A DNA stretch of 64,000 nt from Aliikangiella sp. G2MR2-5 (GTDB lineage: Bacteria > Pseudomonadota > Gammaproteobacteria > Enterobacterales > Kangiellaceae): NCBI RefSeq assembly GCF_015687155.1, contig NZ_JADPQF010000002.1:372001-436000 (forward strand), in the 5' to 3' direction. The notes under the pieces are model-generated. The model did no database searches, was not told where the DNA came from, and saw only the letters and a list, made by a program, of their open reading frames with translations. The position numbers and the translations under genes are program-made. Shown in pieces: positions 38,315-43,234 of this stretch. Every line of letters starts with the position of its first letter. Position 1 is the first letter of the stretch.

Positions 38315-38758
38315 TTATTCAGAGGGCTCCACCTTTAATGTCGCTCCATCAGTGTCTGTTATTCTCACCAACCGGCCTTCCTCCATGTCATCGCCCTCAA
38401 CTCGCCAGAAAGTATCATCAATTTGAATTCGGCCAACGCCATTAACAATAGCCTCCTTCAATGGCACTTTGCGTCCCACAAGCGCCTTTCCTCTTTGATT
38501 CAAAGTGCCGGACTCAGTGTCATCATCTGGGCTACTTTTACGTAATTTTTTCCAGGCAAAAATACTGGCAAATGAAATGAGAGAGAAAATTAATACCTGC
38601 CATTCCCATCCCATTTCTGGAAAAAGGAACAACAACCCGCCCACAATAATTGCCCCAAAGCCAAACCACATTAAAATGGCTCCCGGCGCAAGCATTTCCA
38701 GAATAACGAGTACGAGTCCAAGCACCATCCAATGCCAGTAAACCAGATTCTCTAACAT
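38315..38758 (-). CDS. NfeD family membrane protein (YbbK-like)
   Basis: The 147-residue protein has about three N-terminal membrane helices and a soluble C-terminal OB-fold domain (about residues 85-145, with LVGRKVPLKEAIVNGVGRIQIDDTFW). Short NfeD proteins pair with SPFH proteins such as QmcA and are thought to shape membrane microdomains. A GAGGAG seven bases before the ATG at 38758 fixes the start; an upstream GTG at 38776 is less likely. It directly follows the SPFH gene. Confidence 0.9.
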   Translation of the reverse strand: MLENLVYWHWMVLGLVLVILEMLAPGAILMWFGFGAIIVGGLLFLFPEMGWEWQVLIFSLISFASIFAWKKLRKSSPDDDTESGTLNQRGKALVGRKVPLKEAIVNGVGRIQIDDTFWRVEGDDMEEGRLVRITDTDGATLKVEPSE

Positions 38759-38785
38759 ATTTATCTCCTCAATCACTGCGACGAC

Positions 38786-39694
38786 TTAGCTTTTTACTGC
38801 CTTGGCAATTTCCGCAATACCTGCAATAGATCCAATAACAGAGCCGGCTTCGAGCGGCATCATAACCAGTTTGCTGTTTTCAGCTTTGCCTATTTCTGTA
38901 AGTGCATCGATATATTTTTGCGAAATGAAATAATTGACCGCTTGAATATCACCTTTCGCAATCGCTTCAGAAACCATATTGGTTGCTGCAGCTTCCGCCT
39001 GGGCTTGCCTTTCTCTGGCCTCTGCTTCCAGAAATGCGGCCTGTCTTTCCCCTTCTGCTTGGCGAATTTCAGCTTCTTTTTCACCCTCAGCTTTCAAAAT
39101 TGCAGCCTGTTTAAAACCTTCCGCTTCAAGAATATTGGCACGCTTAAGTCTTTCTGCCTTCATTTGTTGTGCCATAGCATCAACAAGATCCTTCGGCGGC
39201 AAAATATCCTTGATTTCGATTCGAGTGACTTTGACCCCCCATGGATTTGTAGCTTCATCTACGATGCCTAAAATGCGTGCGTTAATCTGATCTCGCTTAG
39301 ACAACATTTCATCCAGATCCATAGAACCCAGTACCGTACGAATGTTAGTCATGACAAGATTTTGCATTGCCCTTTCCAGATCATTTACTTCATAGATAGC
39401 TTGTGCCGAATTGACTATCTGATAAAAACAGACAGCATCAATTGTTACCGTCGCATTATCTTGAGAAATAACCTGCTGCTCTGGAATGTCCAGTACCTGC
39501 TCCATCATATTGACTTTCGCGCCAACGGTTTCGATAACAGGTGTGATCCAGTTAAAACCCGGACGTAAACTCTTGGTATATTTTCCAAATCTCTCTACCG
39601 TGTATTCATGACCCTGCGGAACCGTTTTGGCGCCAAGAAAGACAAGAAAAACAATTACCCCTAAAATACCTAAAACTATATATCCTGCGTCCAT
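38786..39694 (-). CDS. qmcA: SPFH/Band 7 family membrane protein (QmcA/stomatin-like)
   Basis: The 302-residue protein has an N-terminal membrane helix (about 3-22), an SPFH domain ([21 protein letters not shown] onward) and a long charged coiled coil made of AEGE-type repeats (about 185-240). It resembles E. coli QmcA (305 residues), which also pairs with an NfeD protein. It probably forms an oligomeric scaffold in the inner membrane that influences proteases or local lipid order. An AAGGA six bases upstream supports the start. The symbol is by homology and arrangement. Confidence 0.88.
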
Positions 39695-39788: not shown

Positions 39789-40136
39789 CTAATTAACAAT
39801 TACCGCAGTATCATCGAGCCCTTTGCTATCACTGTTAACAAAACGAAACTGATTAAACCCTACTTTAATCATATCGCCATCAGCCAGCTTCTCTCTGCTT
39901 ACTTTGCGTCCGTTAAGCTCAGTACCATTTGTGCTTTTTAAATCTTCAATATAGATGTTTTCAGCCCCGTCAAGGTATGGGTCTGCTTCAACAACAAGAC
40001 GAGCATGCTTGGAACTAACCGATTGGTCGTCAATTTGAATATCACAATCCTTTGCTCGCCCCAGGATAATAACTTCATCGTTAATTTCCCATTTGTTGAT
40101 AACAACATCTTCAACAATAAGTGCCAGGTAAGCCAT
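39789..40136 (-). CDS. FHA domain protein
   Basis: The 115-residue protein is almost entirely a forkhead-associated domain: ILGRAKDCDIQIDD, VSSKHARL and LKSTNGTELNG are the phosphothreonine-binding loops. The C-terminal tail ends GLDDTAVIVN, with Thr110 in an acidic setting that resembles kinase target sites in GarA-like FHA proteins. A similar motif is found in the neighbouring kinase. It probably reads or receives Thr phosphorylation from that kinase. GGAG seven bases upstream supports the start. Confidence 0.92.
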   Translation of the reverse strand: MAYLALIVEDVVINKWEINDEVIILGRAKDCDIQIDDQSVSSKHARLVVEADPYLDGAENIYIEDLKSTNGTELNGRKVSREKLADGDMIKVGFNQFRFVNSDSKGLDDTAVIVN

Positions 40137-40187
40137 TAATAACTCCGCTTTAATTTAAAGTGATTTGTCTTAAAAATGAATAAAATT

Positions 40188-40967
40188 TCAATCTGTTTCT
40201 TGCAAGGTTGAAATAATCCCCAAGGTTAGATTATCTCGACTACCTTCAGCCATAGCCCTTCTCACCATAGGTTCAACAACGGTGTAACCCATTGCTGCCT
40301 GCGCTAAAAATCCGGCCATTTCACCATCGGAAAGGCTTTCATGCAGTCCGTCAGTCGAAGCAAGAAGCGCATCTCCTGTATTCAGCGACGTACTTCCGGA
40401 GTCCACTTCAATGTTCGCTTTGACGCCTACCGCCCTGGACAATAGATGCCTGGTATTTGAACGTCTGGCCTCCTCCTGGGAAATCGAGCCTTTATTTAGC
40501 AGGTACTGAATCATAGTATGGTCTTCTGTTAACTGCTGGAGTTCATTTTTCCTCAGTCGGTAAAGCCTGGAATCTCCAACCCAGGCAAAAGCAACAAAGT
40601 TTTGCCAACAGACCAGTAGTACCCCTGTAGTCCCCATTCCAAGATATTCTTCATTGTTTCTGGCCGCCTCAAAAATCAGGCTATTAGCCTCTTCAATTAT
40701 CTTCGCTAAATATTGTTCGCTTTGTTGTGCTTTTGGTTGCTCATGCAAATTACTCAGCCATTTCTGCAAAGACTGTTCGGCATGCTGAACAAACATGCAA
40801 CTGGCTACTTCGCCAGCTTTGTGGCCTCCCATGCCATCAGCTACAGCCATCCAGAGCAAATTTCCCTTCGCAACATCAGAATTTTCAAGACTTCCATACC
40901 GAATTGCATCTTCATTATTCGGTCTGACTTTGCCCTGTTCGCATATCGCCTGAGCTCTAAATATCAT
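40188..40967 (-). CDS. PP2C-family Ser/Thr protein phosphatase (Stp1-like)
   Basis: The 259-residue phosphatase has the PP2C metal-binding motifs: KVRPNNEDA, AVADGMGGHKAGE, LLASTDGLHE and the C-terminal SRDNLTLGI. It should reverse phosphorylation made by the kinase encoded immediately upstream; the two genes overlap as ATGA. It has no membrane segment and so works in the cytoplasm. Bacterial kinase-phosphatase-FHA sets like this are common in type VI secretion loci and in cell-wall control, but no type VI genes are visible here. Confidence 0.93.
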   Translation of the reverse strand: MIFRAQAICEQGKVRPNNEDAIRYGSLENSDVAKGNLLWMAVADGMGGHKAGEVASCMFVQHAEQSLQKWLSNLHEQPKAQQSEQYLAKIIEEANSLIFEAARNNEEYLGMGTTGVLLVCWQNFVAFAWVGDSRLYRLRKNELQQLTEDHTMIQYLLNKGSISQEEARRSNTRHLLSRAVGVKANIEVDSGSTSLNTGDALLASTDGLHESLSDGEMAGFLAQAAMGYTVVEPMVRRAMAEGSRDNLTLGIISTLQETD

Positions 40968-43234
40968 ACTATCGGCGCCTTTCTAAAATCTCTCTTCAAT
41001 GCACTGATTAGTGCTTGTTTGAATTCAAGCATAGTTTGAAAGCGCTTGCTCGCATCTTTTTGTAACGCTTTGTTGGTAATTCTGACCGCGCTTGCGGGAA
41101 GCTTACTATCCCAGCTGCGGACTGATTCCTGTTTACTCTTGGTAATATGATAGGCAACACTGGCAATGGACTCTCCCCCAAACGGCAAGTGACCGCTTAA
41201 TAACTGATAGAAAGTTACTCCCAGACTAAATATGTCACTGCGGCCATCAACTTTTTTCCCCATCACTTGCTCTGGCGACATATAGAATGGACTTCCGACG
41301 ATAGTACCAGTACGAGTTTTGCTTTGATCAGTAACATAGGCAATGCCAAAATCAGTCAATGTAACTCGCTGAATATCATCATCATAGATAATATTTGCCG
41401 GCTTAATATCCCGATGCACCACATTTTGTTTATGTGCATAATCGAGCGCATCGGTAATCTGTATCATTAACTGGTAAACCAAAGGTACCGGTAGCCGGCT
41501 TTCAGGTTTTAAAAAGTTGGATAATGGCGCACCGGTAAGGAGATCCATCGCGATATAGCCAAGGTCTCCTTCTTCACCCACATCATAAATAGTGACTATG
41601 TTTGCATGACTTAAATTACCGGCAGTTTCGGCTTCTCTGAAAAAACGATCTTTATTCTCGGTAAAATGTTCGTCTGCATCTTCAGCGCATAGCTGAAGAG
41701 TTTTGATTGCAACGTGACGATTAATCTTTGGATCAACGCCCTGAAAGACAATCCCCATGGCACCGCGCCCAAGCACCCCCTCAACCTGATAGCGTCCAAA
41801 GCTTTCAATCTGGAAAATAGGATTAGTTACACTTCCCGGAGACGTTTGTCCTGGCTGGATAACTAGTGTTGAGTCAAGCCCATCTTTATTTTCGCTTTCT
41901 TCTAACTGGCGATACTCGTTGAGTTTATCAAGCGCTCCCTTATGACCACTTGTTCTGCGCTCATGCCATTCAAATAGCTTTAGGGCAAAGGTCCGGTTAT
42001 TTTCCGCTTCAGCGCGTAATCCCAGATCAAAAAGGGTTTCACTTAACTGCTCTCCTGGCTCAACACTTTCCAACCAGGGCTGAATCTTTTCAAAATCTCT
42101 CGCCTGATAAAGATATGGCGCCGTTAGCGCCAATAAACGCGATTGCTCGGCTTGCAAGCGGGAAAAACGGCGATATTCATAAAAATACGCATTGACCAGA
42201 ATAAATACGATGGCGAGCAAACTGGCTAGAGGGATCACGGAAAACCACTGGTGCTGAGTAAAAGCCAGATATTGACAAAGTACGAGAAGAGTCACTATAC
42301 CGCTAATGCTGACTATTTGGACAACGCCCCTTTGCCTGGCAACCAAAGTCGCAGCCAGGGTGAGCAGGACCCAAAGAAAAGTATTGAGCAAAATGGTCGC
42401 CCAGCTTTGAGTCAGATAGTTTTTCTGTTCCAGTCGAGCGACAATCTGGCTTAAAAGCTCATCAATCTCAAAACCAGAGTGCTGCAATAGTATTAGATTT
42501 GGCGCGCTTTGCGGCTGCATTTGTAAAAGTGAATCTAGCCCAATAGTGTCAACAGCCTTGCCTCCGCCGTAAACTTTCCCGTTATACCCCAACGGATAAA
42601 ATTGCTCACCAACGGTTAATGCCAAATTTGCTTGCGCACTGAGCTCAGGCTGGGCCTGACCAACACCCGCCAGTATCCAGGCTACGGCAGCTGGCTGAAA
42701 GTATTTTCCGCTGTGCCATAGTGCGGAAAAAGCAGCATCACGACTCATTAGCGGTGCCACTACAACATCATTGTCGGTTCTCCAGGTCAGCTCTTTGTCA
42801 TCTTGGAGATATCGCCATCCGTGCCCGATAAATGTCCAGCTATCAGCTCTTGCAAAGAGTCCATTCTCAGTAGTTTGCCGGGTACTGAGTATAACCAGGT
42901 TGTCTAACTGATTTTTACCAACGGATGACTCCAGTACTCCGGCTATGCTATTCAGCCATTTTTCTGGAGCCTTAGATGATAGAATAAATTTTGTTTGTGG
43001 TAAGCGATTGATTAATCTGATTAAGCTTTCTCTGTCTGAAAGCTCAACCTTGACACTGGCGGCTTTGGAAGTGTTTTCTTGCTGAGGAAAGACACGATAA
43101 AGCAAATCACGATTCCACTGTTCAACTACTGAAAATTGACCGCCCCATAAAAGTCCGAAAACCGCCACAAAGCAGATCAATAACAGGTAAAACCAGCCTG
43201 TATGGTGGAAGGGTAAAACTCGGCTGTTAGTCAT
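40964..43234 (-). CDS. CHASE2-like membrane Ser/Thr protein kinase
   Basis: The 756-residue protein has a membrane helix (about 13-31), an extracytoplasmic domain resembling CHASE2 (about 35-275), three membrane helices (about 280-352), a short helical region (about 365-445) and a C-terminal Hanks-type kinase (about 481-750). The kinase motifs are intact: GRGAMGIVFQGV, Lys511 in HVAIKTL, HRDIKPANI (Asp609) and DFG (Asp628). A juxtamembrane GLDSTLVI (452-459) resembles the tail of the FHA protein. The kinase lies after the membrane helices, unlike PknB. The signal sensed is unknown. Confidence 0.88.
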   Translation of the reverse strand: MTNSRVLPFHHTGWFYLLLICFVAVFGLLWGGQFSVVEQWNRDLLYRVFPQQENTSKAASVKVELSDRESLIRLINRLPQTKFILSSKAPEKWLNSIAGVLESSVGKNQLDNLVILSTRQTTENGLFARADSWTFIGHGWRYLQDDKELTWRTDNDVVVAPLMSRDAAFSALWHSGKYFQPAAVAWILAGVGQAQPELSAQANLALTVGEQFYPLGYNGKVYGGGKAVDTIGLDSLLQMQPQSAPNLILLQHSGFEIDELLSQIVARLEQKNYLTQSWATILLNTFLWVLLTLAATLVARQRGVVQIVSISGIVTLLVLCQYLAFTQHQWFSVIPLASLLAIVFILVNAYFYEYRRFSRLQAEQSRLLALTAPYLYQARDFEKIQPWLESVEPGEQLSETLFDLGLRAEAENNRTFALKLFEWHERRTSGHKGALDKLNEYRQLEESENKDGLDSTLVIQPGQTSPGSVTNPIFQIESFGRYQVEGVLGRGAMGIVFQGVDPKINRHVAIKTLQLCAEDADEHFTENKDRFFREAETAGNLSHANIVTIYDVGEEGDLGYIAMDLLTGAPLSNFLKPESRLPVPLVYQLMIQITDALDYAHKQNVVHRDIKPANIIYDDDIQRVTLTDFGIAYVTDQSKTRTGTIVGSPFYMSPEQVMGKKVDGRSDIFSLGVTFYQLLSGHLPFGGESIASVAYHITKSKQESVRSWDSKLPASAVRITNKALQKDASKRFQTMLEFKQALISALKRDFRKAPIV

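Follow-up and report, generated by a model that had tools for sequence, protein, structure and literature searches.

A matched threonine motif in a membrane kinase and its operon-encoded FHA protein suggests a shared docking and switching signal

Why should the linker of a membrane Ser/Thr kinase and the tail of a small FHA protein encoded in the same operon carry nearly the same short threonine motif? The question is raised by a stretch of 64,000 nucleotides (the window) from the 5.0 Mb genome of Aliikangiella sp. G2MR2-5 (contig NZ_JADPQF010000002.1, positions 372,001 to 436,000), on the minus strand of which an operon encodes the kinase, a PP2C phosphatase and the FHA protein, in that order. 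An earlier note on this DNA had placed GLDSTLVI at residues 452-459 of the kinase and GLDDTAVIVN at residues 106-115 of the FHA protein, and had read the two as a single kinase recognition site; translation gave both motifs exactly there. We consider it probable, at about two chances in three, that the operon encodes a self-docking phospho-switch, in which one docking and switching signal would be used by both the kinase and the FHA protein. The genes and motifs concerned, in window coordinates, are the following:

40964..43234, minus strand, membrane Ser/Thr kinase of 756 amino acids (Pfam Pkinase, E=2e-51; hydropathy)
41858-41881, minus strand, linker motif GLDSTLVI, kinase residues 452-459 (translation)
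41867-41869, minus strand, codon of Thr456 (translation)
40188..40967, minus strand, PP2C-type phosphatase of 259 amino acids (Pfam PP2C_2, E=1e-18)
39789..40136, minus strand, FHA protein of 115 amino acids (Pfam FHA, E=7e-21)
39792-39821, minus strand, tail motif GLDDTAVIVN, FHA protein residues 106-115 (translation)
39807-39809, minus strand, codon of Thr110 (translation)

Conservation was examined in two alignments, one of 16 kinases, which omits the G018 kinase, present only as a fragment on its operon contig, and one of the FHA proteins of 17 genomes with a close form (the window's included), 16 of which belong to the window's family. The kinase alignment showed that Thr456 is the sole invariant residue between a conserved Glu of the TPR-like part and the Gly-Arg-Tyr (GRY) of the catalytic domain in 16 of 16 members, and that position +1 is L or M and position +3 aliphatic in all of them, while the linker otherwise varies in length and sequence. 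In the FHA proteins, Leu107, Thr110 and Ile113 were the only invariant residues after the last strand (17/17); V112 was kept in 16 and A111 in 14 of the 17, and the remaining tail positions varied. Homologous pairs thus keep both threonines, in surroundings of the FHA type with a hydrophobic residue at -3, mostly an acidic one at -2 and an aliphatic one at +3, and the family contained no case in which the kinase was kept and the Thr motif lost, the finding that the earlier note had said would count against it; in the wider set of 116 kinases described below, the motif was kept in 88.

The VAIK Lys, HRD and DFG motifs, to which we ascribe the usual catalytic roles, were invariant in the 16 kinases, and Arg27, Ser41, His44 and Asn70, which we take to form the phosphothreonine pocket of the FHA protein, were invariant in the 17 FHA proteins, so that the putative catalytic and pocket residues are intact in both partners. 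The three genes are operon-linked: each of the 16 family loci groups the kinase, PP2C and FHA genes, with one of the kinases partial and one PP2C split between two frames, as do 31 of the first 40 order- and class-level loci mapped. At L043:3162-3948, the PP2C is read as two overlapping open reading frames in different frames, which may be a frameshift or a misassembly.

A contig scan with the single FHA protein reached only two close relatives, the named matches being Kangiellaceae assemblies, and the family-level search, over 61 genomes, had FHA matches in 24. The recurrence of the motif was then followed beyond the family. The kinase profile had matches in 24 of 394 genomes at the order level (E<=1e-80) and in 98 of 369 genomes at the class level (E<=1e-85). 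Together with the 16 earlier loci, 100 regions fetched from the better matches, rather than from every match, gave 116 kinases; an FHA gene lay within 4.5 kb of 88 of them, and 83 had a PP2C gene in their region. A T-phi-phi-phi motif was present within 36 residues ahead of the catalytic domain in 88 of the 116 kinases. For the 110 linkers first anchored, 84 had the motif, whereas shuffled linkers averaged 8.6 and never exceeded 16. Of the 96 FHA proteins encoded nearby, 78 have phi-[DEN]xTxx-phi in the 35 residues that follow the fold; 300 shuffles gave a mean of 2.9 and a maximum of 10. Some of the 18 FHA proteins missing the motif have near-matches (HERTAIYIP and FAKTMII, for example), and many kinases outside the family bear two motifs, the acidic-fronted EETVMLGG and the non-acidic GGTLVLDG.

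As read from these alignments, the likeness of the two motifs is not due to chance, because the Thr is kept in 16/16 kinases and 17/17 FHA proteins and the motif recurs in many families of the class, far above shuffled sequences, although its flanking sequence changes. A match in a single genome proves little, since the bare DNA-level pattern gave 42 matches in the whole genome and 50 in a reversed control; on the same numbers, we rejected the motif as a genome-wide substrate signature. Of the 42 matches, 30 were assigned to loci: the kinase and the FHA protein account for one each, and the others lie in open reading frames of at most 166 amino acids or midway along long ones, apart from L266, whose match is 17 residues before the end of a long open reading frame.

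The two motifs were compared with known FHA ligands. The self-peptides of DgcB, GarA and OdhI have hydrophobic residues at -3, +2 and +3, with stress on +3, Glu at -2 and Ser at +1 (PMC6733907). The FHA tails agree with this rule at its hydrophobic positions, with L at -3 (17/17), V at +2 (16/17) and I at +3 (17/17); at -2, where the rule names Glu, they have mostly Asp or Glu (one Asn), and at +1, where it names Ser, mostly Ala (14/17). LDSTLVI of the window kinase fits the rule except for Leu at +1, and LDDTAVI of the FHA protein fits once Asp is accepted in place of Glu and Ala in place of Ser.

We propose that the membrane kinase, on its signal, would phosphorylate Thr456 of its own linker, and that the FHA protein would bind this phosphothreonine through its conserved pocket, which would bring the FHA tail to the active site. 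The kinase could then phosphorylate Thr110, the surroundings of which (hydrophobic -3, acidic -2, hydrophobic +2/+3) mimic the docking site. The phosphorylated tail would become a competitor for this kind of pocket, and the competition, most likely with binding in trans to another FHA molecule or a downstream partner, would release the FHA protein from the kinase or link FHA molecules together. The PP2C phosphatase, encoded between the kinase and FHA genes, would remove both phosphates. Phosphorylation, binding, the order of events, release and PP2C action are what we infer from the conserved features described above.

GarA-type closure in cis is doubtful because, when FRFV is taken as the last FHA strand, just 9 residues separate it from Thr110, compared with about 30 in the tails of GarA and OdhI; the termini of FHA domains sit at the far end from the phosphothreonine pocket. 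Binding in trans, as in TIFA, seems likelier, at low certainty. A broader version, in which a TIFA-like mechanism operates in many families of one class, is possible though rather unlikely: the linker phosphothreonine would seed an FHA chain at the membrane, the phosphorylated tail, too short for self-closure, would be bound by the next FHA molecule, and the resulting phosphorylation-driven polymer or cluster at the membrane would be dissolved by the PP2C of the operon.

Several results weigh against the self-docking switch. No strict motif was found in 28 of the 116 kinases, 16 of which stand beside an FHA gene, and in many class-level kinases the motif closest to the catalytic domain reads GGT, with no acidic residue at -2. 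The FHA proteins L159, L163, L203, L205 and L207 have nothing alike after the fold, and the kinases of L159, L163 and L203 have the motif although the neighbouring FHA protein lacks it. The kinase of genome G645 retains the motif although that genome has no FHA match at E<=1e-8. At G049, which lies outside the family and is the most distant row of both alignments, no PP2C was detected at the locus. To these is added the outcome for covariation of the two motifs, which the earlier note had predicted. The kinase motif was present in 72 of 88 kinases with a neighbouring FHA gene and in 16 of 28 without one (Fisher p=0.012; 116 kinases, alignment-anchored), whereas tree-controlled pairs showed no coupling, with 0.7 same versus 0.6 opposite for 5 pairs and 0.7 versus 0.5 for 9 pairs, a test of little power in which too few of the 5 or 9 independent pairs differed for significance. 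Since the tree-controlled test gave no signal and was low in power, we make no claim that loss of the motif would go with a missing FHA neighbour. The shared-site reading of the earlier note is partly supported: both threonines are conserved in an FHA-type context, while its covariation is without tree-independent signal and its closure in cis is doubtful.

An early two-by-two count on 110 kinases (70/84 versus 14/26, p=0.0035) had dropped six loci without an anchor, and a re-anchored count (p=0.29) was discarded, its anchor being misplaced in L178, L224 and L232, for example. Those 28 loci with no FHA gene nearby come from as many genomes. The FHA search covered 18 of these and had matches elsewhere in 15, several with the motif, which also weakens the coupling test. 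Nine further genomes of the 28 have a second kinase locus with an FHA gene among the fetched regions; G636 was outside the FHA search, and some of the loci are on short contigs. The kinases of G572, G428 and G678, from one family, lack the Thr motif and their genomes have no or a weak FHA match; set against G645, this amounts to one event each way.

Could the motif be structural instead, with the kinase's TLVI and the FHA protein's TAVI forming short hydrophobic strands, each packed against its own domain, and with Thr serving strand geometry? The spacing between Thr and GRY, constant within subfamilies, would suit such a role too and is a further point against the switch; the hydrophobic residues at +1 to +3, the alignment of Thr to a single column in 52 of the 91 kinases compared at order and class level, and the retention of the motif in G645 and in three kinases whose FHA neighbour lacks it also fit packing strands. 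However, the spacing is 24 residues in one subfamily and 13-14 in another, with Thr kept in both and the flanks varying, and the same signature is found in two unrelated proteins of one operon. Positions -2 and +3 obey the rules for FHA ligands (PMC6733907), and none of the seven other anchored kinases of the genome has the motif ahead of its catalytic domain (L280, L283 and L286 were not parsed). We regard a structural role as unlikely. As improbable in our view are two independent phosphosites, whose likeness would reflect kinase preference, the linker phosphothreonine being read by another FHA protein or reader and the tail Thr being a mere substrate. The genome does hold further FHA domains, seven matches in all, and a paralogue with an L..T tail, and the tree-controlled comparison showed no co-loss with the neighbouring FHA gene; against this, a hydrophobic +3, which is an FHA reading preference (PMC6733907), is kept at both sites, and 88 of the 116 kinases have an FHA gene close by.

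A role of the terminal AVIVN of the FHA protein as a degradation signal or PDZ-type ligand with no tie to the kinase linker is hardly credible. The short FHA proteins that were aligned do have their invariant Ile 2 to 4 residues before the C terminus, but the invariance is centred on L, T and I rather than on the final residues. In the short FHA proteins with the motif, Thr lies 12 or 13 residues past the start of the last strand, and in the long ones (about 235 amino acids) the motif is internal, directly after the FHA fold (DFEKTMIIRPG; often FEKTMIIRP), so that it is not merely a C-terminal tag.

The closest published parallels to the proposed switch include the actinobacterial GarA/OdhI system. 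Autophosphorylated N-terminal Thr residues of PknG anchor its FHA substrate GarA (PMC8546545). GarA/OdhI are FHA substrates of a Ser/Thr kinase that anchors them through an autophosphorylated segment, as is proposed for the FHA protein described here, and the context of the substrate Thr, ETTSVF, with Glu at -2 and hydrophobic +2/+3 (PMC8546545; PMC6733907), resembles the tail motif. ETTSVF is N-terminal in its substrate and PknG has a C-terminal TPR domain, whereas LDDTAVI is C-terminal and near the fold in the window protein, which starts almost at the FHA fold and has no N-terminal ETTSVF motif. The kinase studied here has membrane helices and a PP2C in its operon, unlike the PknG system, and its linker Thr never varies within the family, whereas the N-terminal sequence of PknG is poorly conserved (PMC8546545). 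In the PknB-FhaA (Rv0020c) system, the phosphorylated juxtamembrane segment of PknB binds FhaA (PMC12077195, citing Roumestand 2011), which is the arrangement proposed here, a membrane kinase whose phosphorylated cytoplasmic linker docks an FHA protein; a matched motif in FhaA is not described in the accessible sections of PMC12077195. The FHA domain of Bdellovibrio DgcB recognises a Thr motif within its own chain under a similar residue rule, in an N-terminal tail and fused to a cyclase, and the accessible sections describe no operon kinase (PMC6733907). In animal TIFA, a phosphothreonine near the FHA fold is bound by the FHA domain of another molecule and drives oligomers (PMC7083832), the difference being that TIFA acts in animal innate immunity, with the kinase ALPK1 and an N-terminal Thr9.

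Comparison with protein models showed that the FHA protein exceeds the Pfam model PF00498 cut-off (74.9 versus 20.7 bits) and falls below those of the OdhI whole-protein model NF041660 (37.2 versus 200 bits), the type VI TagH/Fha model TIGR03354 (25.8 versus 120.25 bits) and the FhaB model. Its best sequence match among solved structures is TB39.8, which is FhaA. Type VI secretion systems have kinase, phosphatase and FHA gene sets (PpkA-PppA-Fha) like this operon. The type VI Fha protein interacts with a phosphothreonine of TssL (PMC3953482), and no type VI genes were recognised by eye among the open reading frames listed for 33-48 kb of the window. A kinase cluster specific to Gammaproteobacteria is mentioned in PMC2877116, and an operon of this kind is absent from the accessible sections of PMC12088040, which deals with PP2C phosphatases. 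Neither the operon nor the shared motif was found described in the titles and abstract openings of the papers listed by searches of the open literature, subscription papers being mostly outside that scope. The principle is already known from PknG-GarA and PknB-FhaA; the matched, operon-encoded motif pair is a new form of it.

As the earlier note had stated, the linker motif sits past the last membrane helix and ahead of the catalytic domain. From N to C terminus, the kinase consists of one helix, a periplasmic stretch, three helices ending at residue 349, a TPR-like stretch, the linker and the catalytic domain. The features of the kinase and the domain of the FHA protein are as follows:

43142-43198, minus strand, first membrane helix, residues 13-31 (hydropathy)
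42188..42394, minus strand, three adjacent membrane helices, residues 281-299, 307-325 and 331-349 (hydropathy)
41906..42097, minus strand, TPR-like helical stretch ahead of the linker, about residues 380-443 (read from the kinase alignment)
41033..41791, minus strand, kinase catalytic domain, residues 482-734 (Pfam)
39858..40067, minus strand, FHA domain of the FHA protein (Pfam)

The TPR label is weak because each Pfam TPR model listed matches just one of the 16 members at E<=1. The periplasmic part (residues 32-280) had no Pfam match above cut-off, and CHASE2 was not detected in the window kinase by Pfam up to E=5 nor at its place by whole-genome search; the one-plus-three helix layout agrees with that of CHASE2 sensor kinases, and the class-level homologue L145 carries CHASE2 at E=5e-43 (Pfam). 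The sensor of PknB is PASTA, and the N-terminal part of the window kinase differs from it; the PASTA kinase model NF033483 gave 280.8 bits against a cut-off of 450, with the match confined to the catalytic part. The PADLOC matches of the kinase (the 25 best of 37) start no earlier than residue 476, in the catalytic domain, and the FHA protein had no PADLOC match. In one sister genus (L047, L048, L049, L051 and L052), the kinase frame is about 530-560 amino acids long, with a far shorter N-terminal part, and retains the linker motif and the catalytic domain.

The PP2C gene overlaps the kinase gene by 4 bases, and its product scored 217.9 bits with the NCBIfam Stp1/IreP model, slightly below the cut-off of 230. 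Immediately downstream of the FHA gene (window 38315-39694) lie genes for a Band 7/SPFH protein and an NfeD-like protein; Band 7 was the downstream gene in 3 of 42 loci scanned. A Pfam scan of the next same-strand genes (downstream in 42 of 45 candidates, upstream in 41 of 52) found no family in more than five members, the commonest being a response regulator (5/42), and a common output partner is not inferred for that reason. Another family of small FHA proteins carries a Thr just past the fold and, behind it, a strongly conserved tail of the KKSWIPG type with aromatics near the end. Its members are L054:7746-8120, which lies elsewhere in the window's own genome, and L053, L055, L056, L057, L168, L288, L289, L290, L294 and L302; the gene is upstream of the kinase in L053 and L168.

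The analysis names two residues, Thr456 of the kinase and Thr110 of the FHA protein, that may explain the wiring of a widespread kinase-phosphatase-FHA operon, and the self-docking reading predicts the first substrate, the docking site and the reader of this operon together. It suggests that the logic of docking an FHA protein and then phosphorylating it, known from Actinobacteria, exists here with a differently placed motif, and the motif may be used to recognise partner FHA proteins in genomes.

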